The notes under the pieces: generated by a model
The model's database searches: none
What the model was told of the DNA's origin: nothing
Seen by the model: the letters and a program-made list of their open reading frames with translations, nothing else
IMG/VR virus record: IMGVR_UViG_3300033273_000498
Location: 1-36,843 of that record
Strand: one strand, 5' to 3'
DNA from: a virus
Length of the DNA: 36,843 nucleotides
Part shown: piece by piece, positions 16,414 through 36,843 of the stretch
Layout: every line of letters starts with the position of its first letter
Numbering within the stretch: position 1 is the stretch's first letter
Made by a program: the position numbers and the translations under genes

Positions 16414-19400
16414 TTATGGATAGAAACTCATATTGTTAGTGTTTGCTTCTTTCTGGAGTGCTCCACTTCTTCTCAATCCAAAGTTACCTGTTCTGGTAAT
16501 GGTTGGGAATGTCGATAATCCAGAATCAACAACTAAACCAGTAACGCCAATCGAAACTGGATTTGCTCTAGTACCAAAGTTGTACAATCTACCCCAGGAG
16601 AGATATCCAAGAGAAAGTGTTCCATCATCATCGTCGGTATCGAAACTTCCCACTGTTGCAATTCCAGCAATATTACTATTGCTATGAACATTAACAATGA
16701 TCTCGCCCTTATCACCGATGTTAGTCTTGGATGCAACGATGTAAACGTTGTCAAGGAATTGAGTTCCAATACCAACAACCGAAGCGTCATTAGCATCGAT
16801 TGAAGTAACACCTGTTCCAACAGTGGTCTGGTGGATAAGGATTGGATAACCTGGTTGCAAATCAGTTGCATCACCAAGATTCTTCTCACCACCAACAGTT
16901 CTATCTGCTAATGCGCGGAAGTTAATCTTCAATCCCTTGGTATTTCCATTAGTTCCTGTTGTTGCAGTAATTCCTGTAATAATTCCAGTAAATCCTTGGA
17001 TATTCTGGAATGATGGGAATTCTTCAACAGTTGCTGCAGGAATTTCAATAATGGTATTAGGAGTTCCAATAGTGTATCCTAATCCAGGATTTGTGATAGT
17101 AACTGCACTTACTCTGCCATTAGTGATAGTTGCAGATGCAGTTGCTGTTGATCCAATACCAACACCAATAACTGGTGGAGCACTGAACTTAACATCTACA
17201 GGAGATGTTGTATAACCCAATCCAGGATTTGTGATATTGATAGATGAAACTGAACCATTGGAAACAGTAACACTAAATTCTGCTGCTTCGGGTTCATCAG
17301 TATCTACAAGTCTTCCTCCCATACCACCAGTTGGAATGGTGAATGAATAGTGTTGCTCTTCATATTCGAAGAACTGTGCATCATCAACAAAGATTTGAGT
17401 AGATGCGTCAGTAATATCACCAATAACCTTGGCAGTAGGAATAATTGCAGGTTCAATAGACTCTCTCTGCTTGGAAACAAAGTCTCCCTTAATGTAAAGA
17501 TCGCGCTTTTGCTTGATCCATTCAAATGGCTTGAATATCTGTTCATTGATACCTCTACCTGTATAGATATCGGTTTCTGCAATATCGGAGAGAGTGTTAT
17601 CAACGATAGTTCTAGAACGCTCTTGAGACTTGGTTGATGGGTGTAAAGGATGCTTGTAAACGTGAACAGCATCACCAATCTTGATGGTTTCTTCAACGTT
17701 AACGAAGGTTACGTCAACATTGTTTTGACCAACGTAGAAGAAGATATCAACCTTATCATTTACATCAGGTGCTTCAGTGAATACGAATGAAGTACCACCA
17801 GTAAACTGATATGCATATCCAGGAGTCTGAAGAACACCATTGACAAAGATCAGGAGAACAGAATCAAGATCGATTGCACCTGCCAGAGGATCTGTAGAAT
17901 CAATTTCGAAACTTAACAGTTGACCCTGATAGTAAAGTGGGAAGCGAACTCTAGAACCATCTTGGAAGGTAGAAACAGAATCGAGGTAGTTCATTTCACC
18001 GAACGACCAAGAAGAGAAGAAGTCGTTGAATGTTTGAACAACTTCAAACTGTGCATCCTCCAGAGGTGCAGTCAGGTGCTTGCTAGTAACCATACCAACA
18101 GGTCTGAATACATCACCAACTTGGAATGCATAACCGTTTCTAGCGATTTCAAAAGTCTCAATACCAAACAGTGATCCAGGTGCTACAGTTCTTGTAGGAG
18201 TTGTACCAAAGTTTGGATCAACTGCCATTGTGACAATTCCAACCAGAGTGTGAATTGCAGATGCAACGTTTGCACACTGTGCTGGAGTTGTAGATGAAGT
18301 CAATCTATATTCGATTGAATTTGCAGCAGCACGAACAAAAGTATGAACGTATTGCTGACCTGATGGAGATGCACCAACATTTACTCTGAAAGTATTTGTG
18401 GTTACATTATCAATTGTAAGGAATACATTCGCTGCAGGATCTGAAGAACGTGGATAAGAATTTTCACTAACATTACCATCACTTGTACAGGTGAATGTAT
18501 AAGCACCAACTGGCAGTCTTACTTGATCACCGATCTGGAAACCGTGGTTTGCAAGGGTAATAACAAAGTTCCCATTTGATGCAGTATATGTTGCATTAGT
18601 TGCAGTGAAGTAAGAAACTTCATCAATAACAGTGAGATCAAAGAACTGTGTTCTAGTTGTATGACCACCAACAGTGATGGTTTCATTTCTCATTGCCTGA
18701 ACTGCCATCAGTTTTGCCTGACCAAAGGCATAGATGGTTTCATCTTCTTCACCAGAAACATGTGCTCCAGTGATATACAGATTTGCAGCATCTACAGTCT
18801 TATCATTTCCACCGTATCTCAAGTTGTAAATAACAGACTCAAGAACATCAATAATATCATCCTTACAATCTTGGGCATTTCCTGTAGGAATTGTGAATGA
18901 TGGGAATTCATCCAACATTCTGCCATATGCAATATCTGCGATGAACAATTTGTTCTCATCGATCAGATTCGCAGCATCGTAGAAACGATCTCCATTTACA
19001 TTCTTCTGATTAGGTCCAATAGTAAAGTTCATCAAGAGGTTCTTACCAACATCTGTGGTAGCACCAATACCTAATCTAGAAACACCTTCAACAGGAATGT
19101 TCTCATAATTTGGTTCCGGAATGATAATTTCTGGGTTGATATAACCAGATCCACCAGAAGTAACATTCAATGCTAGAGTTCCACCAGCACCAACTGTTGC
19201 TTCAATAACAGCACCTTGTCCAGCACCACCAGCAGGTCCAATATTAACAATAATATCATCATCTGTTGCTGTGAGGATTGCTGTTTGAATACCTGCAACT
19301 GGATCTGTAGATCTTGGATATACCTGCTCGGTATAGTGATAATCTTCAGAGCAAGTGAAAGTCAATGAACCAGTGTCAATTCCAACCGTATCGCTTGTTG

Positions 19401-22400
19401 TTAATCCGTGGTTTGGAATATTCAGGCGGAGTAATCCAGTATGTGAAGTGAATACGGCATCAACTGCAGTATGAGTACTGTTATTTGTAGAAGAATTAAT
19501 ACTCCCAATACCTGCTCTAACGAACTTATGCTCATATGCTTGATCGGTAACTCCGATAGAAACTGGACCTCTATATCCAGATCCTTCTGTAAGCATACGA
19601 TACTGGTAAACACTACCAAGTCCAACATAATGATGGGTGATTGTACTTGTGCCAACCTGAACTCTTGCTCTCTTGGCATCAATAACTCTCTCAATTTCAA
19701 ATGGTCTATTGTGATCTGGGAAGATTGTTGTTGTTACACCACTATATGCTGGAGTGCAAGTGAAGTGGAGACCAACCATCTTAACCAACTCACCAGTCTT
19801 CATATTGTGTGGCTGAGTAGTTTCAATCTCAAGAACACCAGTTGTCTTGGTGTATGCTGCAGTTGAGATACCAACTGGTCTGAAATAAGTGTTGATACCG
19901 ATGACATCAACGATAGAACCGTTGGCATCAAGTTCTGCCTTATATCTTGCACCCTTCAGAGGAGCATAACCAAGACCAGGTGTGGATCCGAGAGAAACAA
20001 TCAGACCGCCTCTTGGAAGTTGATTCTGGTTGATATCAAAATCTGATTTGATGAACGATCCATCAACAGAACTAATACCAGTGAATACAATACTAGTAAT
20101 ACCAGATTGAGTTTCAAAGTCGTAGTTATTTCCTGAATTGTTCAGAGTAGATGGTGTTTGAAATACCCCGTTGATAAACAGAATACCATTACCAGCAGCA
20201 CTGTTACCAAACACTCCAGAACCAGTATTTTGTCCAGGTCCCGTGGTGTTAATGCCATTTACAGTTACGGTATAGGTTTTTCCAATTCCAGTAAATTGAT
20301 CCGAAATGTCATCAAAGACCATATTCTTGGAATAATCCTGTCTCAAGAAGGTTCTTCCAGAGTAAGATGCCTTTACATATGGCAGATTTGATTCATTTCT
20401 TCTTGCTCTGGTATTACCTTTAGGTGCCTCAATAAAGTGAATATCTCCACCAACAATGTTGATTGAACCTCTATGGATTTGAACATTAGCACCATCACTG
20501 TGTGCAACTGCAGTACTACCAACAGATGCTCTAACAACGGATACAGTTGGGAAAGTGTTACCTGTTCCAGCATTGATAATTCCGTTGATAGGTCCAAGAA
20601 GTTGTCCGCCAACATTAGTACTGAGTCCAACTTCAACAACCTTCATGTACTCATCATCAATCTTCAGAAGATCTCTTGGTTGAATTGATGAAATACCCGT
20701 GATATTGAAGGTTGAGATGCCAGCACTAATTCCACCACCGTTGTATGCAAGAGTATGTCTGATAGGAGTGAATGTAATTGGTTGCTGAACAATACCATCA
20801 AGAGCAACAACAGTCTTGGAGAGTTTCTTTGTCATATCCAACTGGTGTGCATTCCCTTCACCAACATCGGTGAAAGTCATCTTGATATCATTATCTGCGT
20901 GATCTTTTCTGGATGCCAGGAAGAAAGTATTAGGAGTTTGTACGATTGGGAATACTCTAGATGGCATTCTATCGGTAACAATACCAAGATAGTTCATTGT
21001 TGCACCAATGCCCATTGCACTTGCACCAACACCAATAAAGGTTGATTTTGGTGTATAGATCAGTTCTTCGCCAGTATTGAAGAAGTGATTAGGAATTGTA
21101 AACAAACCAGTTGTGAGATCTACAGTTGTAGTATCACTTGGAGAGAATGTCTTATTATAGATCGAAATTCCTTCATGAGTAATTGGGAACTTGGTTCTAT
21201 TAGCACGTTCACCATTCAAACCATCAAATGCAGAGAGGAATACTCTTTGCTTGTTTGGTCCATAATTAAGATGTCTTGGATCATTATCAAAATCACTTGC
21301 AGTATAGAATACTTCATTGTAAGAAGAAAGATCTACAGTATATCCTGCATCTGGATAGAACTTAAGAATAAAGTTAGTTCCAGAAATTTCTGATCCAAAT
21401 GTACCAAGACCAGTTACATTATTAACTGGAGCAAATGGACCTGGTATTGTTGTGGTTGATTTTGTATTATTCAGTGCTGCAACCTGATGAATTGCAGAAC
21501 TAGTTCCTGCAGAAACTCTTACGAGAGCATTTACTGAAGTTACATTCCCAGAATTATAGGTACCAACTACAATTGGAGTACTTCCAGAAGCAACCATAGA
21601 CTCAAGTCTAACGCTTCTTTCTGATTCTGGTGGTTGATTTGATACCAAGAATCTATAAGTGCCAACTCCAACAGTTCCAAAACCTACAATGTTTGTGCGA
21701 ATATCGAGAAGATCTTCTTTACCATCGAATTCGTTTCTTGCCATGAAAGAAACAATTCCAGTTGTGGAGTTGTAAGATGCAGTTACAATTCCAATTTGAG
21801 AACTACTATAAGACTGATTTTCGTTATCAAAATAATATTCGCTGATGTAAGTGTTGGTTCCATCAAAGTCTATTGCTGCTTCAATGTATTCAATCTCTTT
21901 GGTAAATCTGTTAACAATTTCAATATTTGCAAAAGCACCATTAAATGCATTTGCATCGTATTCGATAATGGTTTTCTCGGAAAGACTAGAGATTCCTGCA
22001 GTGAAGCGACCATCTACTGTCAAAGATCCAATTGAAACGGTACCAATTCCAGTTTCTCCAACAGGAATTGCATCATAAACATAAGTCTTCTTCAGAACTT
22101 TAATATCATGATCTCTATCAAATGGATCTGTTGGTGTGAAGATTAGGGTCTTTCTTCCAGTATCATCAACATTTGCTTCAAAATCACCAAGTTTTTCTTT
22201 AGTAAAGGTGGTGTACTTTTCAAGAAGATGTGAATCAAGAGAAGTTGATTGGAGAACCAATTCACTAACTTGAGATTCGAATGTATCTGGATCTACAATT
22301 TGAATTGTATATCTTACGTGGGTATCTGCAAAATCAATTTCTTCAATCTCTACAAATCCATCTTTAAAACCTCTACTAGAGAATCTATCACTAATATCAT

Positions 22401-25400
22401 CGTGAATGAGAACTCTATTAGTTCTGCATTCGTTATAATCAGTCAGTTTTCTATTTTGAAGTTTGAGGAACTTGGATTGATTACCTCTACTATCAGAGTC
22501 TGTTACGTTATCAAAGTTATTGATTGTATCAACTCTTTTTTCATTAACAACATCAAGAATTACAACACTCTGTGTTGATCCTTCAAGATTAGCACCACCT
22601 CTAGTTTCTGATGTAATTCCAACATCAGCAAAGTTCTTAAGACCTGCTGGGTGAACAACACTGTTTACAGGATTTGAGAACTCACTCCAAGTAATAGGAC
22701 TCTTAACAGAATAAGAAAGATTCTGATAGTAATCGTTATTTGGAATTCTCTGCTCATCCTCACTGATCTTACCTACATCATCTCTCCAACCAATATCTTG
22801 CTTGGATGCATAATCAACTTCAAACTTGGATCTATTCTTATCAATATTGGTTACAGTTGCAATAGTTCCACTGATTTGTCCCTTGATCTTATCTCCAACT
22901 TGAAGATCAAATCTTCCTCTAATCTTAATGTAATCATCTCTAACAAGAGTTACAAATACATCAGCATCAATAAATCCAGTTCCAGAATCTACAAAGAGTT
23001 TTTCATTTGAAACAAACTCTGCACGTTTCTGAATGACATCAACAACAGGATAATTTTGCTTATTGATCAGAGTTGCATATCCAGATTGATATGTTTTTGC
23101 AATACCTGGATTAGTTGTAACTAAATTACCAAGTTCATCTTTCAACTCAAATTCAACAACTACTGGATTAGTATTCTGATACTTGGTGATCTTGAAGAAT
23201 CTATAATCATAACCTTCAGAGTTCCATCCATCTCCAGATGTACCATTAGAAAGTTCAATACCTTCAATGAAGATTTCATCGCCAACAGAGAACTGTGGTG
23301 AATTGTATCCAAGGATTGGTGTCTTCAGAGTGCAAGTTGCAATACCTGCAGCAGAAGTCTTCATTGAAACGATACCAACACCATTTGAATTATTGACAAA
23401 GATTAACTTATGTGGTTCAGATTCAAGACCAAGAAGTGGTCCAAGTTGAGTAATTTCAGATACTGCACCATTAGGAGTAAGTGCGACGAGAGAAGTTTCA
23501 TCAACAACTTTTTTCTTGGTATCATTCCACAGTTTAACATTAGGAGGATTGATGTATCTTGAACCACCAGAAATGATATTAAGTTCACCAATGGTATCTA
23601 AATCATCAACAGAAACAATCGGTGATACAAATGCTTCTGGGCGGAGAGTTTTATCTGCTGGATAATCATATCCAATATCTCTCATTCTAATACTTTTGAT
23701 TCTACCGATGGATGTAGAAACTGCAACAACGTTTGCATTTCGACCACTTTCTGTGGTTACATCAGTGAATTTGGGAAGTCTATTGAAGTTAAATCCTTTT
23801 GAAGTGATTTTTACTTTACCAATACTTCCGCTAATAGCATTAGAAGATCTAGTTGCATATTCTAGCTTATCAGTTTCACTCTTCTGGTAAGAAAGAACTG
23901 CTGGCAACTTATTAGGAGAAAGTTTGAATGATGCTGTAGAGATACCATAGATTTGATATTCTCCATTATACTCACTATCAACATAGTTGATTTCGGAATG
24001 ATTAACAACATCAATATCAGCAGTGCTAATATATCCACCCTTCTCTAAAGCATAGAAGAGTTTGTTTGGAACACTCTTGGAGAAGTTAACAGAAAGTGAT
24101 GCTGTTCCAAATCCTACACTACCAATGCCAATGACATTAAAATCTCTATCATCAGATGCACTTAAGAATTCTGTCTTAAATTCTCTTTCGCGAAAGATCT
24201 TAAGTTGATATCCTCTTAATGATTCATCGCCAAGTAAGAACTTAATATTGGAATTTCTAACAACATCAATTCTTGGATTGATTGCTGCAATAGAATGTTC
24301 AGATCCACCAATACCAGTAAGATTAATTGATACTTCTGTTTTGGGTTGTGATTCGTAGAATGTTTCTGCTAATCTAAATGAAGTTGAGTTCTCTTTGATG
24401 ACAAAGTATGATCCTGTAGAAAGACCAGCAGCAACCTCATCTGTGGATGTATAATACAGTTTATCACCAGTCTCAAATCCATGATCTGGAATGGTAATAG
24501 TATTGTTTGCAATATTAATTTGAGAAGAATCAAATCCAACTGGATTGACTATCAGTTGTTTGGTATCATCAATGAACTTCAAGGTGAGAGGTGTAGTGCT
24601 TCCAATACCAACGGTGGTATTTGGAATTACACTCAATTTAACGGTATCCCCACGCTTCAATCCGTGAGAAGATCCAGTACTAACAGTTGTTACAATACGA
24701 TCAACAGTTCCAGTAATGTTATCATAATTTGTTTCTAATCTATAGAGATCATTGTCAGATCCATCTGTATGGAAGTACAATCCATCAGTTGAAGTAGTTA
24801 ATCCGATTTGCGTAACTAATCCAATGTGATTCTTACCTTTATTGATAACATATACTGTAGAAGTATTTGTGAAGTTATCTGGAAGGAAGAAAGTGCCAGT
24901 GCTAGTTTCAGTAGGACCAACTGTGAGAGGATCTACACCAGGTGTAGTGGTTTTGCTGAATGTAACTCTATCACCAGTTCTAAATGGGTGTGAAGGCACA
25001 TAGATGCTTCTGTGTGGGATATTAACCATCTGTGTGGTAATACCCACTGTCTGCATCTTGGAAACGGCACTACCAGTTGTTAAACCGATGCCAACAGAAT
25101 CTTTTGCATTGAAATATCTAACTTGATTTCTCTTCGATTTAAAACTATCAGTTGATGCCTTGATCTTAATTCTCTGATTGAGAACGTGAATCTTACTTCC
25201 AAATGTATGTGCTACACCTGGATCTGCAGTTCTATGAACTCTAATGATTCCGTTATCAAATTTGTTTAGTACAGTAACAGTTTCAATTCCTTGTTCGGAA
25301 CTAATTACCATACTGCCGCCAATGGAAACTACTGCAGGTCTTGATACGTAGATATCCTCTGCAATACCACCAGGAACACTATTCCAAGTTCCAGTAGTAG

Positions 25401-28400
25401 CAGCAAGACCAATCGTATCTGTTCCAAAACCAACAATTTTAGATCCAGAAAGATTTAAGATCGAGGATGAAAGACCACTGATAGAGATCTTATCATCATC
25501 TTCCAGATCAAATCCAAACAGAGTATATCCAGAAACTTGATCAGCATTATCCCAAACAAAAACTACATCTTCATAACGATCCAGATCAGTTTCAATCTTA
25601 TCGATGTTAGAACCAATAAGTTCTTGAACTTCTGCCTTCAATCCAGATCCAGTATTTTCAGTTTCATCAAAGTTCAGGCGTTCTCCAATTCTATACCCAG
25701 TTCCACCTTCAATAACTTCAATATCTTCAACTTCTCCTTGAGTTACAGATTTTACAACACTGATCTGTTCAAATGATTCATATGACTCATTGAAGTAATC
25801 ATAATCTGCACCAGGATCATTTACTTTGTATGGGAAAGTATTACGAACAAGAGTTGATGCATTGAAATCAAAACTTTGATCTAAATTTCTATTCTCTTCA
25901 ATCAGATTATTTTTGAATGTATTACCAATAAAGTATGGATATTTTGGGATTAATCTATTGGTTGTTGTACTAGTTTGAACACCTACAAAGTAAGCGTATA
26001 CACCATTGGGGAAATCTGGGGTCTTACAGAATCTGCCATTGTGTCTGTCAAGATCACCAGAGTTAGTGTAGCGATAATCTTCAATAAAATATCCAGCAGA
26101 AAATCCTGCAGGTCTATCTGCAACTGCCGATGCATCAAGTTCATATCCAGATCTAATGATTACTGTAGGAGATTGTGGATCATCTGGATCTTGGGATCCA
26201 TAAGGACCATAGATTGGATTTCCATCATATGCCCATCCAATGATTGGAGAGTGTGTTCCACTGGTTAAATCTTCAAATCCTTCATCTGCCAGATCTTGAG
26301 AATATCCATACATTGAGTATGAAAGACCATCTTTAGTCTCATTTTGATATACGTTTGAGAATATTTGTGTAGTATTTGTCTTTGTGATATTCCCGTAACG
26401 CTCTGCATTATTAAGTTCAAGATCTCTTACTCTGGTTGAGAAGATTGCTCCTGATCCTCTAGGTTTGACGTACAGTGAAGTTGTGTTTGGATCATATCCA
26501 ATACCTTCATTCGTTACAATAACATCAGTAATCTCACCATTAACAATTACTGGACGGAATGATGCTCCAGTTCCACCATTAACATCTGTTGGAATGATTT
26601 CTGGAATAGAGAAGTATTCTGATCCTCTACCCAAAACCTGAACTTCAACGATCCTTCCATTGCTGATGATTGGATTTAATTGAGCATCTTTACCATTCTT
26701 GAGGGTAATGATTGGTTTCTTATGGAGATTTACGATGCTAGATCCATATCCAACACCACCTTCATACAGATATGATCCAGTAATTTCACCAGTAACAATA
26801 GGTGTAAACACAAATGATCCAGCAATGCTAGAACCAAAAGATACGTTAGCAGTAACTTTAATTGGTGGATACTGGAAAATATGATAACCAGATCCAACAC
26901 TAGTCAGATCTACATACTTTCCTCTTGTAAGATCTGTAGTATTTGTTGATGTCTTAAGACCAAGATCAATTAATCTAAACTTATCAGCATCAATCTTGAC
27001 AATAGAGTAATGATTTGCTGTGTTAAGACCACCAATGATAGTACCATCGTTGGAATATTCTACAGTCTCACCAGTCTCAAATCCGTGGTTCTTGAATGTA
27101 ATGGTGTCATAGATTGTAGAGATTCCTACAGATTTAACTCTGAGTTTTCTATGCTCATATCCAGAACCTGAATCGACAACCTTGATTTTTCTAAGTGCTT
27201 TTTGTGGAAGAGTTCTGAACTTATGAATACCACTAGCAGTTGATGTAGTAGAAAGACCAATTGTATTGATGCCTGCAGAATGATCTGCAGGGGTTGGGAA
27301 GAGGCGAATAGTTGAAGAGTTGATAACTCCTGCATAATAGGTGTCACCGCTGCCTAAAATACCTGTAGAGGGTTGATTGGGGTTGAATGCAGCACCAATA
27401 GCAATAGCAGGATTTCCGTTTCTATTGTAAATGATCTCTTGACCATCTACAAAACTATGTGGGGTACGGAAAGTAATTGTTTCAGTATCAATATCAACAC
27501 CACCACCAAGATCAAGACGACGACTATCAAACTCAACTTCTCTAAACTTATCACCAAGAATTGGTTCGAGTAAGCATCCAGAACCATTTCCACCAGTAAG
27601 TGTAAGAGAAACAACAGTGCTTACATCGAAATTATGTGGGTCTACAAGAACCTCTTTTACATTACCAGTGATAATTGGTTCAACTTTTGCTTGTCCACCA
27701 AAACCAGAAGCAATTTCAATTTGAGGAGGATTTGCAACATCATAATCCATTCCCGAATTAAGAATTTCAAACTGTTTGATAGGACCATAGTAAACCTTAT
27801 CATCAGATTCTGGTGCGCTAATTTCAACGCCATCAATCAAAATACCAACACTTCCAGATTCTCTTTTAGAATCTTTGGTATTTTCTTTAGATTGTACTAA
27901 TGGGAACTTTCTTAAGATAGTTTTTGGACCAAGAAGTCTATCCTTCTGATCAATCAAAGTAAATCTATGAACACCACCAAGAGTGTTTGAACCAAATCTT
28001 ACGAACTGGGTAGTTTCTAACAGTGATTTGGATGCATAGAGATAGATCTCATTTGCAGTAACTTTCTTGACAAAGTAGTTTTGTTCAGCAACAAGACCTG
28101 AAAGTGGATTCGTTGCAGTGTAGATAACTTCATCACCATCAATAAAGTCTACTGGTGATGCAAACTTAATTGTAGAAAATGTTTTTAATACTGCACTATA
28201 TCCACCAAGATTGGCATCGGTGCCATCGGGAATACTAGATTCAATAATATTGGACTCAATGTCATATGATGGGAGTGAATATGATGCAACATATCCATCG
28301 GTATTGCTATCATCATTATAAACATTCAGAACGTTCGCAGCATAAGTTGCATTGCCACGATCGATTGTTACACCATTAGAATTTACTTTCTCAATCTTCC

Positions 28401-29982
28401 TACGAATTCTGTATTCAGTATTTACATTTGGTGTAAATGAAGATGGTAAGTTGTTTACATCAACTTCCTGGAGTGCTGCATCAACGTTAGCAATGGTAAT
28501 AGTTGCAATTACAAAATCTCCTCGGAGCAATTCGAAGGTATCACCAACCTTAAGACTTGACTTATCTGGTCTTGATTTTAACTTGAAGGTAGATCCACCA
28601 ATAGAATCGATGGTGTATGATGCTGCAGTGTTGTAAATCCAAGAGTTGGAGAAAACTTCCTTATAAGTTTTATCACCAGTGATTGGATTTTCAACAATTT
28701 CACCAACATTTCTTACAGAGATCTCTTCATCTTTTTCAATCAGTGCAATATCACCAAGTGCTGTAAAGTCTGAAAGAACACCAGTGATACGAAGATCAAC
28801 TCTCTTATCAGTATCTCCATCACCATAACCATAGATGGTTTCATCAACTCTGATCTCATCTGCAGTGTTGATGGTATTTGTGATACCAGTACATCCAAAG
28901 AATTGAGTGATACCCTTTGAAGTATAGGTAATGGTATTATTACCAGAAATCAGAGTGCCAGAGGGTGCAAATCCAATTGTAGAATCAACTGTAATAACGC
29001 TAGAACCCGCTGGAACGGTTTCTATTACCTTGGACCTACCTGGGATAGTAAACACACCTTCAATGAGGTCTCTGTCGTTATATCCAACGAATAGACCAAG
29101 TCTGTAGAATGTTTTATTATCTCTACTAAAGATCTCAACATCAGAAACTGATGCGCTAGTTTTATTATCTGTAGATTTAAAGATCGTTTGTCCTTCCAAT
29201 GAGAAAGGATCTCCAGAAATTGATTCTGCAACGATAACTTCTCTTCTGATATAATCTGCAGAAGATGGTTTGATCAGACGAGTTTCAAGGTCTAATACCT
29301 TTGCACTTACACCATACAGAACCTTAAACAGAATTCTAATCGATTCTGCAATACCTTTCGACTGATAAAAATCTCTAGCGTGCTTGATGAAGTTTCTAAC
29401 ATCAAGATCATCAACAAACTTTTGATCTTCCAATCCAGGAGTAAATGTTCTCTTGAGTTTCTTATAGAACTCTTGCAGGAAGAGAACACTCAAGTTAGTA
29501 ATTGTTGCTGAAGAGTCATGTGCTTCGGCAGAAGAAGTTGAGAAAACAACATTCTGTCTGTTACTATTAGAGAAGTAACTAGCAATACCTACATTATATC
29601 CAGTGATGCCACTGAAACCACGAACACAACCAGTAAAAGTTGTATCAGTTTTTCCTGTGTAAGTAATGATCTCATCACCAATCTTCAGGAGACCATAGTC
29701 ATCTGGAAATCCTTTTGTGGATGAGACCGTTATTGTAGTATCTGTAGCACTGATTGTAGAGGAGAGAGTTGTCTCACCAACGACTACTTCTGGGACAAGA
29801 TTATCAACCTTGATATAGTGATCAAGATTATCAACCAGATCTACATTGCCGCCCTGTTTTTCAAGAGAAGCATAGTATTGCTTGAAGAATTCAACAGCTT
29901 TTGGAAAATCTGCTACTAAAAATTCTGGAAGTTGGCTCTCAATAATTTTATTGAGTTGCACTCTCTTCTCAAAATTCGACAT
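16414..29982 (-). CDS. 7: Giant baseplate wedge protein, gp7-like, 4522 residues, with YHYH domain
   Basis: The N-terminal 250 residues hold the gp7-type core. FLVADFPKAVEFFKQYYASL and the segment VRNFIKHARDFYQSKGIAES with LFKVLYG (about 195-230) resemble the YDFYSTKGIEASYKFLFKVL region of T4 gp7, a 1032-residue protein that clamps the wedge. Around residues 1240-1340 there is a YHYH-type domain (WAYDGNPIYGPYG, then DRHNGRFCKTPDFPNGVYAY). The rest is a long series of beta modules: several HGFETGDxVxY units, GSGYxxPxIxI units, and three FTC units near the C-terminal third (about 3380-3860). Spacing to gp6 is three bases, and GAGAGG-like text (GAGAGG) before the ATG gives a Shine-Dalgarno. Such giant proteins occur in cyanophages; the added modules presumably decorate the wedge periphery. 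Confidence 0.85.
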   Translation of the reverse strand: MSNFEKRVQLNKIIESQLPEFLVADFPKAVEFFKQYYASLEKQGGNVDLVDNLDHYIKVDNLVPEVVVGETTLSSTISATDTTITVSSTKGFPDDYGLLKIGDEIITYTGKTDTTFTGCVRGFSGITGYNVGIASYFSNSNRQNVVFSTSSAEAHDSSATITNLSVLFLQEFYKKLKRTFTPGLEDQKFVDDLDVRNFIKHARDFYQSKGIAESIRILFKVLYGVSAKVLDLETRLIKPSSADYIRREVIVAESISGDPFSLEGQTIFKSTDNKTSASVSDVEIFSRDNKTFYRLGLFVGYNDRDLIEGVFTIPGRSKVIETVPAGSSVITVDSTIGFAPSGTLISGNNTITYTSKGITQFFGCTGITNTINTADEIRVDETIYGYGDGDTDKRVDLRITGVLSDFTALGDIALIEKDEEISVRNVGEIVENPITGDKTYKEVFSNSWIYNTAASYTIDSIGGSTFKLKSRPDKSSLKVGDTFELLRGDFVIATITIANVDAALQEVDVNNLPSSFTPNVNTEYRIRRKIEKVNSNGVTIDRGNATYAANVLNVYNDDSNTDGYVASYSLPSYDIESNIIESSIPDGTDANLGGYSAVLKTFSTIKFASPVDFIDGDEVIYTATNPLSGLVAEQNYFVKKVTANEIYLYASKSLLETTQFVRFGSNTLGGVHRFTLIDQKDRLLGPKTILRKFPLVQSKENTKDSKRESGSVGILIDGVEISAPESDDKVYYGPIKQFEILNSGMDYDVANPPQIEIASGFGGQAKVEPIITGNVKEVLVDPHNFDVSTVVSLTLTGGNGSGCLLEPILGDKFREVEFDSRRLDLGGGVDIDTETITFRTPHSFVDGQEIIYNRNGNPAIAIGAAFNPNQPSTGILGSGDTYYAGVINSSTIRLFPTPADHSAGINTIGLSTTSTASGIHKFRTLPQKALRKIKVVDSGSGYEHRKLRVKSVGISTIYDTITFKNHGFETGETVEYSNDGTIIGGLNTANHYSIVKIDADKFRLIDLGLKTSTNTTDLTRGKYVDLTSVGSGYHIFQYPPIKVTANVSFGSSIAGSFVFTPIVTGEITGSYLYEGGVGYGSSIVNLHKKPIITLKNGKDAQLNPIISNGRIVEVQVLGRGSEYFSIPEIIPTDVNGGTGASFRPVIVNGEITDVIVTNEGIGYDPNTTSLYVKPRGSGAIFSTRVRDLELNNAERYGNITKTNTTQIFSNVYQNETKDGLSYSMYGYSQDLADEGFEDLTSGTHSPIIGWAYDGNPIYGPYGSQDPDDPQSPTVIIRSGYELDASAVADRPAGFSAGYFIEDYRYTNSGDLDRHNGRFCKTPDFPNGVYAYFVGVQTSTTTNRLIPKYPYFIGNTFKNNLIEENRNLDQSFDFNASTLVRNTFPYKVNDPGADYDYFNESYESFEQISVVKSVTQGEVEDIEVIEGGTGYRIGERLNFDETENTGSGLKAEVQELIGSNIDKIETDLDRYEDVVFVWDNADQVSGYTLFGFDLEDDDKISISGLSSSILNLSGSKIVGFGTDTIGLAATTGTWNSVPGGIAEDIYVSRPAVVSIGGSMVISSEQGIETVTVLNKFDNGIIRVHRTADPGVAHTFGSKIHVLNQRIKIKASTDSFKSKRNQVRYFNAKDSVGIGLTTGSAVSKMQTVGITTQMVNIPHRSIYVPSHPFRTGDRVTFSKTTTPGVDPLTVGPTETSTGTFFLPDNFTNTSTVYVINKGKNHIGLVTQIGLTTSTDGLYFHTDGSDNDLYRLETNYDNITGTVDRIVTTVSTGSSHGLKRGDTVKLSVIPNTTVGIGSTTPLTLKFIDDTKQLIVNPVGFDSSQINIANNTITIPDHGFETGDKLYYTSTDEVAAGLSTGSYFVIKENSTSFRLAETFYESQPKTEVSINLTGIGGSEHSIAAINPRIDVVRNSNIKFLLGDESLRGYQLKIFREREFKTEFLSASDDRDFNVIGIGSVGFGTASLSVNFSKSVPNKLFYALEKGGYISTADIDVVNHSEINYVDSEYNGEYQIYGISTASFKLSPNKLPAVLSYQKSETDKLEYATRSSNAISGSIGKVKITSKGFNFNRLPKFTDVTTESGRNANVVAVSTSIGRIKSIRMRDIGYDYPADKTLRPEAFVSPIVSVDDLDTIGELNIISGGSRYINPPNVKLWNDTKKKVVDETSLVALTPNGAVSEITQLGPLLGLESEPHKLIFVNNSNGVGIVSMKTSAAGIATCTLKTPILGYNSPQFSVGDEIFIEGIELSNGTSGDGWNSEGYDYRFFKITKYQNTNPVVVEFELKDELGNLVTTNPGIAKTYQSGYATLINKQNYPVVDVIQKRAEFVSNEKLFVDSGTGFIDADVFVTLVRDDYIKIRGRFDLQVGDKIKGQISGTIATVTNIDKNRSKFEVDYASKQDIGWRDDVGKISEDEQRIPNNDYYQNLSYSVKSPITWSEFSNPVNSVVHPAGLKNFADVGITSETRGGANLEGSTQSVVILDVVNEKRVDTINNFDNVTDSDSRGNQSKFLKLQNRKLTDYNECRTNRVLIHDDISDRFSSRGFKDGFVEIEEIDFADTHVRYTIQIVDPDTFESQVSELVLQSTSLDSHLLEKYTTFTKEKLGDFEANVDDTGRKTLIFTPTDPFDRDHDIKVLKKTYVYDAIPVGETGIGTVSIGSLTVDGRFTAGISSLSEKTIIEYDANAFNGAFANIEIVNRFTKEIEYIEAAIDFDGTNTYISEYYFDNENQSYSSSQIGIVTASYNSTTGIVSFMARNEFDGKEDLLDIRTNIVGFGTVGVGTYRFLVSNQPPESERSVRLESMVASGSTPIVVGTYNSGNVTSVNALVRVSAGTSSAIHQVAALNNTKSTTTIPGPFAPVNNVTGLGTFGSEISGTNFILKFYPDAGYTVDLSSYNEVFYTASDFDNDPRHLNYGPNKQRVFLSAFDGLNGERANRTKFPITHEGISIYNKTFSPSDTTTVDLTTGLFTIPNHFFNTGEELIYTPKSTFIGVGASAMGIGATMNYLGIVTDRMPSRVFPIVQTPNTFFLASRKDHADNDIKMTFTDVGEGNAHQLDMTKKLSKTVVALDGIVQQPITFTPIRHTLAYNGGGISAGISTFNITGISSIQPRDLLKIDDEYMKVVEVGLSTNVGGQLLGPINGIINAGTGNTFPTVSVVRASVGSTAVAHSDGANVQIHRGSINIVGGDIHFIEAPKGNTRARRNESNLPYVKASYSGRTFLRQDYSKNMVFDDISDQFTGIGKTYTVTVNGINTTGPGQNTGSGVFGNSAAGNGILFINGVFQTPSTLNNSGNNYDFETQSGITSIVFTGISSVDGSFIKSDFDINQNQLPRGGLIVSLGSTPGLGYAPLKGARYKAELDANGSIVDVIGINTYFRPVGISTAAYTKTTGVLEIETTQPHNMKTGELVKMVGLHFTCTPAYSGVTTTIFPDHNRPFEIERVIDAKRARVQVGTSTITHHYVGLGSVYQYRMLTEGSGYRGPVSIGVTDQAYEHKFVRAGIGSINSSTNNSTHTAVDAVFTSHTGLLRLNIPNHGLTTSDTVGIDTGSLTFTCSEDYHYTEQVYPRSTDPVAGIQTAILTATDDDIIVNIGPAGGAGQGAVIEATVGAGGTLALNVTSGGSGYINPEIIIPEPNYENIPVEGVSRLGIGATTDVGKNLLMNFTIGPNQKNVNGDRFYDAANLIDENKLFIADIAYGRMLDEFPSFTIPTGNAQDCKDDIIDVLESVIYNLRYGGNDKTVDAANLYITGAHVSGEEDETIYAFGQAKLMAVQAMRNETITVGGHTTRTQFFDLTVIDEVSYFTATNATYTASNGNFVITLANHGFQIGDQVRLPVGAYTFTCTSDGNVSENSYPRSSDPAANVFLTIDNVTTNTFRVNVGASPSGQQYVHTFVRAAANSIEYRLTSSTTPAQCANVASAIHTLVGIVTMAVDPNFGTTPTRTVAPGSLFGIETFEIARNGYAFQVGDVFRPVGMVTSKHLTAPLEDAQFEVVQTFNDFFSSWSFGEMNYLDSVSTFQDGSRVRFPLYYQGQLLSFEIDSTDPLAGAIDLDSVLLIFVNGVLQTPGYAYQFTGGTSFVFTEAPDVNDKVDIFFYVGQNNVDVTFVNVEETIKIGDAVHVYKHPLHPSTKSQERSRTIVDNTLSDIAETDIYTGRGINEQIFKPFEWIKQKRDLYIKGDFVSKQRESIEPAIIPTAKVIGDITDASTQIFVDDAQFFEYEEQHYSFTIPTGGMGGRLVDTDEPEAAEFSVTVSNGSVSSINITNPGLGYTTSPVDVKFSAPPVIGVGIGSTATASATITNGRVSAVTITNPGLGYTIGTPNTIIEIPAATVEEFPSFQNIQGFTGIITGITATTGTNGNTKGLKINFRALADRTVGGEKNLGDATDLQPGYPILIHQTTVGTGVTSIDANDASVVGIGTQFLDNVYIVASKTNIGDKGEIIVNVHSNSNIAGIATVGSFDTDDDDGTLSLGYLSWGRLYNFGTRANPVSIGVTGLVVDSGLSTFPTITRTGNFGLRRSGALQKEANTNNMSFYP
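18400..19830 (-). repeat. Three diverged FTC modules within gp7
   Basis: The gp7 C-terminal third has three related units. Each begins with an N-H-x-(M/L/F) turn, continues to a strand ending FTC, and then a Tyr/Phe-Pro segment: LHFTCTPAYSG...IFPDHNRP, LTFTCSEDYHYTEQVYPRST and YTFTCTSDGNVSENSYPRSS. The first and last are each followed by a (Y/H)xHxFVRA strand. They read as tandem duplications diverged at the protein level. Confidence 0.65.
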
Positions 29983-34232: not shown

Positions 34233-34865
34233 TCAACCTTTCCTTTTTTTCTGATATACCCATTTACCATTTTCTTTTATAAACGTTCCAGGTTTTCCAT
34301 TTACTTTCCTTGTCGTAATACTTCCATCAGGTAATGTATTCCATGAACTCCCCTTTAATCCTTTATTCCATGGAGGTCTATTACTAGGAATTAAAACCCA
34401 TTCACCATCTTTCTTGATATAATCACTAGTTGATCCACTAGTTGATCCTTTTTTTCTAATAGTTCCTTCAGGTAAACCTGTTTCCTGCATATTCTCCTTA
34501 TGTGTTCCCCATCTTAGATTAGTATAATGATTACACCTATTACCCTTATCACCATGCAATATTTCAGTGTATCCTTCTGGATTAGGAATAAACGTCTCTG
34601 CTACCAATCTATGATTACATTCTTTAATCTGCTTCAACCACTTCCCATTCTCGTCCCGTAATGTAATATTAATACAATGATATTGCTTCTCTGGATACTT
34701 CGGATGACCACGTAATGCTGGTTTCAAATATATTAACCCATACTCATTAATCGACATACGCTCCCCCTTACTTAAAGGTTCCCTATAAGCATCACCATCC
34801 TCACTAATGTAATACCCAGGATACTTCGTTGTTTTTATATTACTAGGTAAATCTCTATAGGGCAT
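34233..34865 (-). CDS. HNH homing-endonuclease-like protein with NUMOD4-like N-terminus
   Basis: This 210-residue protein begins with a NUMOD4-like segment (YPGYYISEDGDAYR, about 15-28). An HNH core follows: CNHRLVAETFIPNP (about 83-96), ILHGDKGNRCNHYTNLRWGT (about 101-120) and HKENMQE. This is the usual form of free-standing HNH endonucleases in phages (I-HmuI-like). The C-terminal 80 residues carry two related units, LPEGTIRKKGS...DYIKKDGEWVLI and LPDGSITTRKV...TFIKENGKWVYQ, which look like a duplicated DNA-binding or NUMOD-like element. A Shine-Dalgarno (CCGGAG) lies about 9 bases upstream. It stands between the AT-rich structural region and the GC-rich block, and may be a mobile insertion. 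The target site is unknown. Confidence 0.85.
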   Translation of the reverse strand: MPYRDLPSNIKTTKYPGYYISEDGDAYREPLSKGERMSINEYGLIYLKPALRGHPKYPEKQYHCINITLRDENGKWLKQIKECNHRLVAETFIPNPEGYTEILHGDKGNRCNHYTNLRWGTHKENMQETGLPEGTIRKKGSTSGSTSDYIKKDGEWVLIPSNRPPWNKGLKGSSWNTLPDGSITTRKVNGKPGTFIKENGKWVYQKKRKG

Positions 34866-34916
34866 AAAATTTTACTCCGGAATTTTTTAAGTCAGGGGGT
34901 TTTATAAAAGCATTTT

Positions 34917-34934
34917 AGCATAATTTTTTATGCT
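34917..34934. repeat. AT-rich inverted repeat AGCATAA-TTTT-TTATGCT
   Basis: This is a perfect 7-bp inverted repeat with a 4-base loop, about 50 bases upstream of the HNH gene. It lacks a T-tract after it on either strand, so terminator function is not supported. It could be an operator or chance. Confidence 0.6.
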
Positions 34935-34997
34935 CTTCCGTAACACTTTGTAGACTGCAGGGACCCATTGAAATTCAAAACGGGGGGCACACGGGCA

Positions 34998-35012
34998 CCG
35001 CCGCACCGGCGG
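34998..35012 (-). terminator. GC-rich hairpin after the 69-residue gene
   Basis: CCGCCG and CGGCGG form a perfect 6-bp stem with a 3-base loop (minus strand GTG), about 60 bases after the stop at 35075. No T-run follows closely, so a factor-independent terminator is uncertain. It could instead protect an mRNA end. Confidence 0.4.
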
Positions 35013-35074
35013 GCGGGGGCGGGGCACTGCCTACCACGCACCCACACTGCTGTCAACCCACCTGTGCCACCTGC

Positions 35075-35284
35075 CTAACCGAACACACAGTCGGCAATGG
35101 CAGCGACTGCCAGTTCGGAATACCAAACCTCCAGTTCCCCAAGGTCCACCCGTTCACCGAACATGTGACCGTAGTCCTGGGCGAACTGCGTCAGAAAGTT
35201 CAAATCGGGGTCAGCGTTCCAGGCGAACTGAACTGCCTCACTCCAGGAGATCGTGCCGTTAGCGTCGGGTGTGGGATGGGTCAT
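35075..35284 (-). CDS. Small acidic protein, 69 residues, in GC-rich block
   Basis: The start at MTHPTPDANGTISWSEAVQF is set by the Shine-Dalgarno AAAGGA 7 bases upstream; a longer in-frame reading would cross the upstream gene. The rest is helical and acidic (AQDYGHMFGERVDLGELEVW, then YSELAVAAIADCVFG). No domain is recognised. It is preceded within 40 bases by the 77-residue gene and there is no hairpin between the two, so they may share a transcript. GC content is much higher than in the structural genes. The function is unknown; the protein is likely cytoplasmic. Confidence 0.6.
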   Translation of the reverse strand: MTHPTPDANGTISWSEAVQFAWNADPDLNFLTQFAQDYGHMFGERVDLGELEVWYSELAVAAIADCVFG

Positions 35285-35324
35285 CGGTGTTCCTTTCGGT
35301 TGTGCATATCCTACCATATCCGAA

Positions 35325-35558
35325 TCACAGTGCAAGGGCAGCGTCGATCTTATCCATGAGGCGCTCACGGGCAGCAGCACGACGGTCGGCGGCGTACTGT
35401 GCCTTAGCGCGACGCTTAACGGCATCCAGGTCATCGACCATCTTAGCGCCCAGACCACGGGCAGGGGTAAAAGTCATTCCACCGCCACTGCTACAACGCA
35501 GACCCTGTCCTTTGAGGTTAGTGTCGGTGCTGCGAGCGGTGCCGATTGCCTTTGCCAT
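35325..35558 (-). CDS. Small basic Ala/Arg-rich protein, 77 residues
   Basis: The start MAKAIGTARSTDTNLKGQGL follows a leader with TATACT and a GC hairpin further upstream. The middle (RCSSGGGMTFTPARGLGAKM) is Gly-rich; the C-terminal half (VDDLDAVKRRAKAQYAADRR, then AAARERLMDKIDAALAL) is a long basic amphipathic helix. No family is recognised. Its charge suggests nucleic-acid or acidic-surface binding, as an inference. Only a weak CGGA precedes the ATG. High GC and codon use ending in G or C set it apart from the genes left of 34900. Confidence 0.6.
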   Translation of the reverse strand: MAKAIGTARSTDTNLKGQGLRCSSGGGMTFTPARGLGAKMVDDLDAVKRRAKAQYAADRRAAARERLMDKIDAALAL

Positions 35559-35594
35559 AGAGTCCGTTAGTTTGTTTGGTACCTTGATAGTATA
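35559..35594 (-). promoter_or_regulatory. TATACT element and leader of the 77-residue gene
   Basis: TATACT on the minus strand (35594-35589) is followed by a 30-base leader rich in A and C that includes CCAAACAAAC. It resembles the leaders of neighbouring genes only in part, since TCAGTTCAAACC is lacking. No good -35 hexamer is seen; the hairpin lies at that place. Confidence 0.5.
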
Positions 35595-35605
35595 AGGGGT
35601 CGGAT

Positions 35606-35625
35606 GGGGGGATCAGCGTCCCCCC
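35606..35625 (-). terminator. GC-rich hairpin GGGGGGA/TCCCCCC
   Basis: A perfect 7-bp stem with a 6-base loop lies 8 bases after the stop of the 69-residue gene at 35634-35843 and 11 bases before the next TATACT element. It may end the upstream transcript. There is no T-tract. Confidence 0.5.
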
Positions 35626-35633
35626 TATGCCAC

Positions 35634-35843
35634 TTATGCGACTGTCACCTTAAGGGTGGGATACTGGGCGACGATCGCATCCATAGTGGCATCAGTGTAG
35701 ATTTTGCCATAGGTGCGGGATCCTTTGCTGTCGTCCCGCCAACCGCCGATAACTGCCTCCCATTGAACGTGACGAACATCGGCGGCATCGTTAGGGTTAA
35801 TCAGGGATCCTGTGATGCGGATGGCGTTGGAAGGGATGGTCAT
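35634..35843 (-). CDS. Small unrecognised protein, 69 residues
   Basis: The sequence reads MTIPSNAIRITGSLINPNDA, then ADVRHVQWEAVIGGWRDDSK and GSRTYGKIYTDATMDAIVAQ, ending YPTLKVTVA. It is predicted as beta strands followed by a helix and a final strand, a compact single domain with no recognised family. It follows a TACACT/TCAGTTCAAACC leader that it shares with two other genes here, and it is followed by a 7-bp GC hairpin. No Shine-Dalgarno is visible in its leader. The function is unknown. Confidence 0.6.
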   Translation of the reverse strand: MTIPSNAIRITGSLINPNDAADVRHVQWEAVIGGWRDDSKGSRTYGKIYTDATMDAIVAQYPTLKVTVA

Positions 35844-35879
35844 CGGTTTGGTGGTTTGGTTTGAACTGAGATAAGTGTA
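35844..35879 (-). promoter_or_regulatory. TACACT element and shared TCAGTTCAAACC leader
   Basis: TACACT (35879-35874) is followed 4 bases later by CTCAGTTCAAACC and an A/C-rich stretch leading to the ATG at 35843. The same arrangement precedes the genes starting at 36233 and 36498. No Shine-Dalgarno is present. Confidence 0.6.
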
Positions 35880-35890
35880 GGCGATGGAGA

Positions 35891-35914
35891 GGGCAGACTG
35901 TGGATCGCCTGCCC
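35891..35914 (-). terminator. Hairpin GGGCAG/CTGCCC
   Basis: A 6-bp perfect stem with a 12-base loop lies just after the stop of the 100-residue gene and 11 bases before the next TACACT. A 12-base palindrome, TTTGTTAACAAA, is adjacent at 35916-35927. No T-run follows, so termination is only possible. Confidence 0.4.
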
Positions 35915-35930
35915 CTTTGTTAACAAACCG

Positions 35931-36233
35931 TCACACTCCCCAGAGGAAACGGGCGATCCGCTCCCGCTTACGCAGCGGCAGGATGCGAGTGTACTCCACC
36001 CAACGGGGACCAAGGTCGTGACGCTTGATCAGTCCCTGTGCTGCCATAACCTTAAGCAGCAGGGAGAGACCAGTGCGTGCCTCATTAGGCATCCCCAGCG
36101 CGGCGTTGATGTCGGTAGGGCGCATCCCGTTCTGCGCTTCGCATCCTGTGCCATTGTCCATCGGCAGAACCGACAGGATCGCCCACTGATAGGTGGCACC
36201 GAAGGAAGAGCGGTTGGTGATGGAAGTGAACAT
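35931..36233 (-). CDS. Possible winged-helix protein, 100 residues
   Basis: Residues 38-84 (MRPTDINAALGMPNEARTGL, then SLLLKVMAAQGLIKRHDLGP and RWVEYTRI) fit a winged helix-turn-helix. There is a short helix, a recognition-like helix ending in GLIKR, and a beta wing that finishes with a tyrosine strand, as in MarR/ArsR-like regulators. The N-terminal 37 residues are unassigned, and the C-terminus is basic (LRKRERIARFLWGV). The start at 36233 follows the shared leader; in-frame ATGs later in the gene are possible. It could be an early transcription regulator. The fold call is moderate and the target is unknown. Confidence 0.6.
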   Translation of the reverse strand: MFTSITNRSSFGATYQWAILSVLPMDNGTGCEAQNGMRPTDINAALGMPNEARTGLSLLLKVMAAQGLIKRHDLGPRWVEYTRILPLRKRERIARFLWGV

Positions 36234-36265
36234 GTCAGGTGTGGGTTTGAACTGAAGTAATCATA
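36234..36265 (-). promoter_or_regulatory. TATGAT element and shared TTCAGTTCAAACC leader
   Basis: TATGAT (36265-36260) is followed three bases later by TTCAGTTCAAACCC and ACACCTGAC to the ATG. The TTCAGTTCAAACC core is the same as in the leaders of two neighbouring genes. No Shine-Dalgarno is present. Confidence 0.65.
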
Positions 36266-36274
36266 CCATAGATC

Positions 36275-36292
36275 GGGGGGATGCAACCCCCC
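36275..36292 (-). terminator. GC-rich hairpin GGGGGG/CCCCCC
   Basis: A perfect 6-bp G/C stem with loop TTGCAT lies 14 bases after the stop of the 63-residue gene and 9 bases before the TATGAT element. No T-tract follows on the minus strand. Confidence 0.5.
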
Positions 36293-36306
36293 AAATCTTA
36301 AGAAAA

Positions 36307-36498
36307 TCAGAACTCTGTGACGCTTGGCGTGTGATCGTAGACGACGACACGGGATGCGTCAGGATTCCGCTCCCGCATCGACCGCGCCACACCATAGGCG
36401 GTCTCCTTAAGGTCTGTCCAGTGGTCAGACTCCTTGCCATCGGGCATCAAGCAAACAACCTGAAAACGGTAAGAAGACTTTAAGCGAGTGTAGGTCAT
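36307..36498 (-). CDS. Small unrecognised protein, 63 residues
   Basis: The start at MTYTRLKSSYRFQVVCLMPD is chosen because it follows the TATACT/TTCAGTTCCAACC leader; a longer in-frame reading from 36603 would translate across two hairpins and this promoter. The rest reads GKESDHWTDLKETAYGVARS and MRERNPDASRVVVYDHTPSV. A strand-helix-strand layout is visible (FQVVCLM, a helix over about 30-43, then RVVVYDH), a small alpha/beta domain with no recognised family. GC-rich codons match its neighbours. The function is unknown. Confidence 0.6.
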   Translation of the reverse strand: MTYTRLKSSYRFQVVCLMPDGKESDHWTDLKETAYGVARSMRERNPDASRVVVYDHTPSVTEF

Positions 36499-36528
36499 GG
36501 TCGGTGGGTTGGAACTGAACTCAGTATA
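36499..36528 (-). promoter_or_regulatory. TATACT element and shared TTCAGTTCCAACC leader
   Basis: TATACT (36528-36523) is followed by GAG and TTCAGTTCCAACCC, then ACCGACC to the ATG. One base differs from the TTCAGTTCAAACC core found at two other genes. No -35 hexamer or Shine-Dalgarno is obvious. Confidence 0.65.
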
Positions 36529-36541
36529 AGGGTGGAGGAGG

Positions 36542-36557
36542 GGGAATCGGTGTTCCC
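36542..36557 (-). terminator. Hairpin GGGAA/TTCCC upstream of the 63-residue gene
   Basis: A 5-bp stem with a 6-base loop is followed on the minus strand by C-rich DNA and then TATACT. A second hairpin, CAGTT-CGGA-AACTG, lies beside it at 36565-36578. They occupy the same place as the hairpins in front of the other small genes, but here no supported gene stop lies immediately upstream. Confidence 0.35.
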
Positions 36558-36649
36558 ACTGTGCCAGTTTCCGAACTGTCCATAATCCGTCCACCCTCCC
36601 CATAGGATGCTAGACTGAAGGTAGACCCTCCGGTTGGTTGGGTTTGTGT

Positions 36650-36676
36650 TAATTAAAGGGGAGCAATTGCCCCCCT
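36650..36676 (-). terminator. Intrinsic terminator after the right-edge gene
   Basis: The minus strand forms an 8-bp stem (AGGGGGGC with GCTCCCCT, one G-T pair, loop AATT) followed by TTAATTAA. It lies 16 bases after the stop of the edge gene. The T-run is interrupted, but stem strength and position fit a terminator. Confidence 0.75.
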
Positions 36677-36692
36677 GTTGTTTATATCTTAA

Positions 36693-36843
36693 TCAGAAGT
36701 TATCACAGAAAACATAACCATCTTCGATGGAATAATCATAGTAAAGTTGGTCCCACGTTGCTTCCCAATCAATGCAAACAAAGGCGGGAATGTCCAGGCA
36801 GTAGCAGTCAGAAACAATAAACTCTGCAAAATGTGCGCCTGAC
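36693..36843 (-). CDS. C-terminal part of an ArdA-like antirestriction protein (start beyond window)
   Basis: Only the last 50 codons are present; base 36843 belongs to an incomplete codon. The readable part includes AHFAEFIVSDCYCLDIPAFV, then CIDWEATWDQLYYDYSIEDG and YVFCDNF. The pattern (F/Y)-x-x-(I/V)-D-(W/Y)-E-A-x-x-x-x-L-x-x-D-Y, then GYVF, resembles the C-terminus of ArdA, an acidic DNA mimic that blocks type I restriction enzymes. The strong acidity supports that, but the match is short. It ends 16 bases before an intrinsic terminator. Base composition is nearer to the AT-rich part of the window than to the GC-rich block. Confidence 0.5.
   Translation of the reverse strand, partial: SGAHFAEFIVSDCYCLDIPAFVCIDWEATWDQLYYDYSIEDGYVFCDNF

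Follow-up and report, generated by a model that had tools for sequence, protein, structure and literature searches.

The question raised by this locus is why neighbouring small phage genes should begin behind the same short untranslated sequence, and whether that sequence would act as part of a promoter or in the messenger RNA. The window, by which we mean the whole 36,843-nucleotide stretch of DNA analysed, is a virus record with T4-type structural genes (gp15, a neck protein, gp25, gp6 and the terminase small subunit), and among isolates it comes closest, at this locus, to Synechococcus phage S-SRM01, which was obtained from a reservoir in Singapore. Two giant ORFs were also observed, of 2471 aa (7406-14821) and 4522 aa (16414-29982), part of the latter matching baseplate wedge, tail fibre and virion structural families.

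The repeated unit in the window

The repeat lies in cassettes within a block of small genes that spans 2 kb and is separated from gp25-gp6, downstream of it, by a few genes (Table 1). The three genes that the earlier note had described as sharing a hexamer and TCAGTTC(A/C)AACC were confirmed: three exact copies of the 12-mer are present, each upstream of an ATG and all on the minus strand, against a mean of 0.01 and a maximum of 1 in 300 dinucleotide shuffles. When two mismatches were tolerated, 15 sites were found and 8.4 expected; for this reason only exact copies were counted, and the mismatched cores elsewhere in the window were set aside as looking like chance. The gap between the hexamer (TANNNT) and TCAGTTC, given in the earlier note as two to four bases, is exactly 4 nt in every copy (TATACT-gagt, TATGAT-tact and TACACT-tatc in cassettes 1, 2 and 3, respectively).

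The unit is also larger than first described, a palindrome further upstream and a fourth cassette having been missed. The fourth promoter has the palindrome and a leader that differs from the TCAGTTC type. Two window promoters thus carry the palindrome (cassettes 1 and 4) and two, in cassettes 2 and 3, have a G+C stem-loop and no palindrome, so the palindrome is not required for all of them. The site of cassette 1 has the best composite matrix score in the window (33.3), and that of cassette 4 (30.4) is the second and last promoter match on the minus strand. A search of the region against Rfam returned sub-threshold chance matches only.

The cassette genes have 54-60% G+C, compared with 36-38% for the structural genes; the block at 34900-36843 as a whole has 51-63%, compared with 36-40% across most of the remaining window. 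This contrast suggests a different origin or selection of the genes in the block. Adjoining it on the downstream side is an HNH endonuclease gene (34233-34865, 35% G+C), possibly a homing insertion.

Table 1. Features of the four cassettes in the window, listed in the direction of transcription.
Feature	Position	Strand	Remarks
Palindromic putative operator, cassette 1	36560..36583	-	ATGGACAGTT-cgga-AACTGGCACA; 24 bp; right half 31 nt upstream of -10
G+C stem-loop GGGAA...TTCCC, cassette 1	36542..36557	-	between operator and -10; read from sequence
-10 hexamer TATACT, cassette 1	36523..36528	-
Leader core TCAGTTCCAACC, cassette 1	36507..36518	-	4 nt from -10; predicted transcript start A, 36516
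Small ORF 1, 63 aa	36307..36498	-	without homologue in isolated phages
G+C stem-loop GGGGGG...CCCCCC	36275..36292	-	upstream of cassette 2; read from sequence
-10 hexamer TATGAT, cassette 2	36260..36265	-	without palindrome upstream
Leader core TCAGTTCAAACC, cassette 2	36244..36255	-
ORF 2, 100 aa	35931..36233	-	predicted winged-helix DNA-binding protein
G+C stem-loop GGGCAG...CTGCCC	35891..35914	-	upstream of cassette 3; read from sequence
-10 hexamer TACACT, cassette 3	35874..35879	-	no palindrome scored
Leader core TCAGTTCAAACC, cassette 3	35858..35869	-
Small ORF 3, 69 aa	35634..35843	-	without homologue in isolated phages
Palindromic putative operator, cassette 4	35626..35649	-	GGTGACAGTC-gcat-AAGTGGCATA; 31 nt from -10
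-10 hexamer TATACT, cassette 4	35589..35594	-	different A/C-rich leader (ATCAAGGTACCAAACAAAC)
Small ORF 4, 77 aa	35325..35558	-	without homologue in isolated phages

Fixed spacing and the upstream palindrome

Related loci were fetched through homology to the 100-aa ORF 2 protein, independently of the motif, and were analysed together with S-PM2 and five contigs. Searching these relatives for the core upstream of ATGs, as the earlier note had proposed, placed 94 of 97 TCAGTT[CG]VVMC sites no more than 25 nt upstream of an ATG. The spacing to the -10 hexamer is 4 nt in 75 of the 78 unique sites from the same sequences; behind every one of the 78 begins an ORF of 30 aa or more (median 71.5), and the distance from core to ATG ranges from 11 to 26 nt among the unique sites of the homology-fetched set. 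With its distance fixed to the -10 and variable to the ATG, the core is therefore anchored to the promoter or the transcription start. The pattern TANNNT-N4-TCAGTTCMNAC was matched 20 times in 24 related contigs and its reversed form not once. Across IMG/VR, among the matches listed, several copies were present in 21 of 115 contigs (reversed control, 0 of 119), and an ATG followed 132 of 142 matches (reversed control, 38 of 119). The leaders are short (mode 16 nt) and rich in A (42%) and C (31%).

Alignment of the IMG/VR copies selected by the motif brought out the palindrome, and a consensus was built from 186 non-redundant elements. The fuller cassette reads TGTGNCAGTT-N4-AACTGNCACA, 29-31 nt, TATAMT, 4 nt, TCAGTTCAAAC, an A/C-rich leader and the ATG of a small gene. 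The palindrome consists of two 10-bp half-sites separated by 4 bp in 85 of 87 cases. The right half-site is present in 151 of the 186 elements (30 in the reversed control), a set in which conservation of the core itself is partly built in by the selection, and it ends 28-32 nt before the -10 in 132 of the 151. Independent of the feature tested are the 24 related contigs, the homology-fetched loci, phage Syn9 and a scan anchored on the palindrome, which covered 5.6 Mb (both strands of the fetched loci). In that scan the best -10 lay at 29-30 nt in 618 cases, compared with about 10 per position elsewhere; a secondary distance of 46-48 nt was discounted, as in our reading it mostly reflects the left half-site matching the right-half matrix. 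The leader core followed the palindrome in 121 of 857 palindrome-anchored cases, the others including several different leaders. Operator and leader are thus separable modules. Further leaders were observed after the same operator and -10 in loci L312-L430, for example AGTAGTATAACAAACAAAC and ACATTTGTTGATTTGAGG, and such alternatives point to lineage-specific leader families. Changes in one half-site are not matched in the other, and pairing between the two is no better than expectation; this lack of covariation marks the palindrome as a DNA site and excludes an RNA hairpin.

The hexamers (consensus TATAMT/TANNNT) are TATAAT-like, as in a standard sigma-70 promoter. In the aligned elements there is neither a conserved TTGACA with 16-18 nt spacing nor a conserved box about 30 bp upstream of the start, the position of a MotA box, and a promoter scan of the window found no -35 at these genes. 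The late-promoter octamer NATAAATA is not present, the window hexamers being TATACT, TATGAT, TACACT and TATACT. The 29-31 nt between palindrome and -10 have no conserved -35 and often contain a G+C stem-loop; a stable fold was found in the 32 nt before the -10 in 49% of elements and in 15% of shuffled sequences, which is consistent with a terminator for the preceding gene.

Distribution among phages and hosts

A 79-nt consensus probe matched 173 of 50,697 phage records, of which 172 are named Synechococcus phage, Cyanophage or Prochlorococcus phage and one is a Microcystis phage, and the element is both conserved and abundant in T4-like cyanophages. In Syn9, 11 operator promoters were found (none in the reversed control). 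Many sit in a small-gene cluster at 43-53 kb that immediately precedes gp25, and the remainder are scattered, some of them ahead of cobS; the leader at several of the 11 is AGTCAAAG. Eight core copies lie within 2.5 kb in S-PM2, some neighbouring ones near-identical, and this cluster (22-25 kb) is also just upstream of gp25-gp6, as in the window and Syn9. One 91-kb contig has eleven copies between 73.7 and 76.9 kb, and cobS, or the gene in the equivalent position, follows the element in S-SM2, Bellamy, S-T4 and S-SCSM1. The proteins encoded downstream of the elements are unrelated or have no homologues in isolates, from which it follows that the element is conserved independently of the genes behind it.

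Bacterial and archaeal genomes totalling 257 Gb contained the full palindrome 13 times, compared with more than 120 viral loci, and 386 cyanobacterial genomes contained a shorter form 27 times, compared with 8 for the control. Being rare in host genomes and frequent in viral loci, the palindrome does not mark a host regulon, and that candidate was excluded. Palindromes on Mojavia, Cyanothece and Xenococcus contigs were rejected, there being no clear -10 at the phage distance; the Mojavia sites sit among host genes. On one Mojavia contig (L300; 3109 and 5193) two operator-type palindromes were observed upstream of two paralogous repeat proteins.

ORF 2 is predicted, with moderate confidence, to encode a winged-helix protein. 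Its structural model has a mean pLDDT of 73, with best matches of the ArsR, PerR and MarR type (E at least 0.0057), and MarR_2 was detected in 10 of 17 homologues (best E 0.002). Relatives were found at 33 IMG/VR loci, behind several leader types, and the sole isolate relative is in S-SRM01; no homologue was detected in Syn9 or S-PM2. ORF 2 is therefore not the general operator-binding protein, its distribution being too narrow. The S-SRM01 homologue (locus L004, 5032-5334) was observed to have its own TCAGTTCACACC promoter, and the gene is unannotated in MW015081.1.

Probable promoter function, rival explanations and known systems

The recurring parts, their spacings, the phage specificity and the synteny can all be read directly from the sequences, and we consider it quite probable that each repeat supplies the promoter and 5' end for a small gene of a T4-like cyanophage that is transcribed on its own, the promoter being most likely of an early type. 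We infer that the -10 (TATAMT/TANNNT) is read by the host's sigma-70 RNA polymerase; a -35 is absent. The usual gap from -10 to start is 6 nt; if this is assumed, transcription would begin at about the A of TCAGTTC, the core would form the start region and first leader bases, and the palindrome would be centred near -54. A palindrome near -54 and no -35 would be the arrangement expected if the promoter works with the host sigma factor and depends on an activator. In the fuller form, the polymerase would be recruited by a dimer-forming protein bound to TGTGNCAGTT-N4-AACTGNCACA, the midpoint of which would lie some 54 bp before that start. The short A/C-rich leader would be translated without a Shine-Dalgarno sequence, and the stem-loop between operator and -10 would often terminate the gene before it, so that every small gene would form a cassette complete in itself. 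Early timing is probable, as judged from the gene type (small orphan genes) and from the reported element taken up below. A wider proposal is offered tentatively, with some doubt on our part: T4-like cyanophages would share a promoter class in which a dimeric factor binds the 24-bp operator, which serves no bacterial regulon, and lineage-specific leaders like TCAGTTCAAAC would form a second recognition or expression signal; on this proposal, if the genes are early, the factor must come with the virion or be a host protein diverted to a phage-only site.

Promoter and stem-loop lie between unrelated small genes, the copies gather in a variable region of small genes ahead of gp25 (in the window, in S-PM2 and in Syn9) and reach 11 in about 3 kb of one contig, and the cassette genes stand apart from the structural genes in G+C content. 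All of this would suit PeSL-type recombination cassettes, in which the repeats are chiefly homology for the shuffling of small genes and any promoter role is secondary. The exact spacings and the palindromic symmetry with freely varying half-sites speak for protein recognition over plain homology, however, and the sequence between the parts is unconserved, so we regard this as rather unlikely to be the chief role; shuffling and promoter activity can be compatible.

In another reading an ordinary promoter lies upstream and the shared stretch works at the RNA level, whether as a translation enhancer, an S1 site, a stabiliser of the mRNA 5' end or a target of sRNA/antisense RNA. The core does lie mostly inside the predicted leader and differs by phage lineage (AGTCAAAG in Syn9), and the A/C-rich leaders generally have no Shine-Dalgarno sequence, as the earlier note had claimed, any SD-like tetramer being present in only 17 of 197. 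We nevertheless consider it unlikely, because the distance to the -10 is invariant and that to the ATG is not, and because conservation starts two bases before the predicted transcription start. A promoter-anchored sequence can act in the mRNA too, and the two readings are to that extent compatible. Of the options in the earlier note, a promoter particular to the phage, together with a common leader, has strong support: the element recurs, keeps a fixed spacing to the -10, stands in front of small ORFs and is specific to phages. The constant distance to the -10 and the variable distance to the ATG leave the sRNA/antisense target and the ribosome-binding element unsupported.

The palindrome might instead be a repressor operator, or an RNA hairpin or terminator, since it lies close behind the upstream stop codon and ORF 2 in the window has a predicted repressor-like fold. 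We think this improbable: a centre near -54 is an activator-like position, no -35 is present to give the promoter strength alone, covariation between the half-sites is lacking, and neither in Syn9 nor in S-PM2 was a homologue of the winged-helix gene detected. Least probable are ordinary host sigma-70 promoters whose leaders are alike as a by-product of recent cassette duplication in one phage, which would fit the -10 consensus and the near-identical neighbours in S-PM2 but not the missing -35, the phage-specific palindrome or the same core and spacing before unrelated genes in diverse phage genera.

Among known systems, the T4 middle promoter consists of a MotA box at -30 and a sigma-70 -10. 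The promoter proposed here would be similar in having an activator site in place of the -35 and a host -10, but it has a 24-bp palindrome near -54 and no -30 box. A cyanobacterial promoter activated by an NtcA-type protein combines GTA-N8-TAC with a -10; the likeness would again be an activator palindrome plus -10 and no -35, but the palindrome and its position are different, and ours belongs to no host regulon. Cyanomyoviruses are without motA, asiA, alt and modA, and because these functions are missing, early/middle transcription, that is pre-late gene switching, was called unclear in a 2010 review (PMC2984593). The precise consensus, fixed spacings and phage-only operator make this switching testable, and the protein that binds the operator could be fished out with the site as bait. 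The cassette can also flag small host-takeover genes in cyanophage genomes, several of them unannotated, such as the S-SRM01 homologue of ORF 2.

PeSL (promoter early plus stem-loop) cassettes of T4-type phages (Arbiol et al. 2010; Comeau et al. 2014, via PMC4503421), so far as that source describes them, likewise have a promoter and stem-loop between small variable genes, in many copies and with a likely role in gene shuffling. Their density was judged low in the S-PM2 region studied there (PMC4503421), which differs from the 22-25 kb cluster. Promoter and stem-loop occur together in intergenic regions here as well, by the fold frequencies given above and, in the window, by eye; the difference is that the place of the -35 is taken by a palindrome specific to phages and that the predicted start site falls within the core. 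No cyanophage paper on the core sequence was found in the literature searched. A transcriptome study of Syn9 and P-TIM40 (Doron et al. 2016) is reported to have described a previously unknown element that controls early genes and is shared by the T4-like cyanophages; it reportedly did not extend to freshwater members. That element, as reported, has in common with ours the phage group, the conservation across it and early-gene control, and Syn9 itself bears the palindrome promoters found here, with a leader different from TCAGTTCAAAC. The palindrome promoter is probably the same element, so that, with the PeSLs, the earlier note was probably wrong to know of no described element of this kind. 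The operator is probably already known in outline, and the TCAGTTCAAAC leader class, the exact spacing and the use in freshwater relatives may be new to description.
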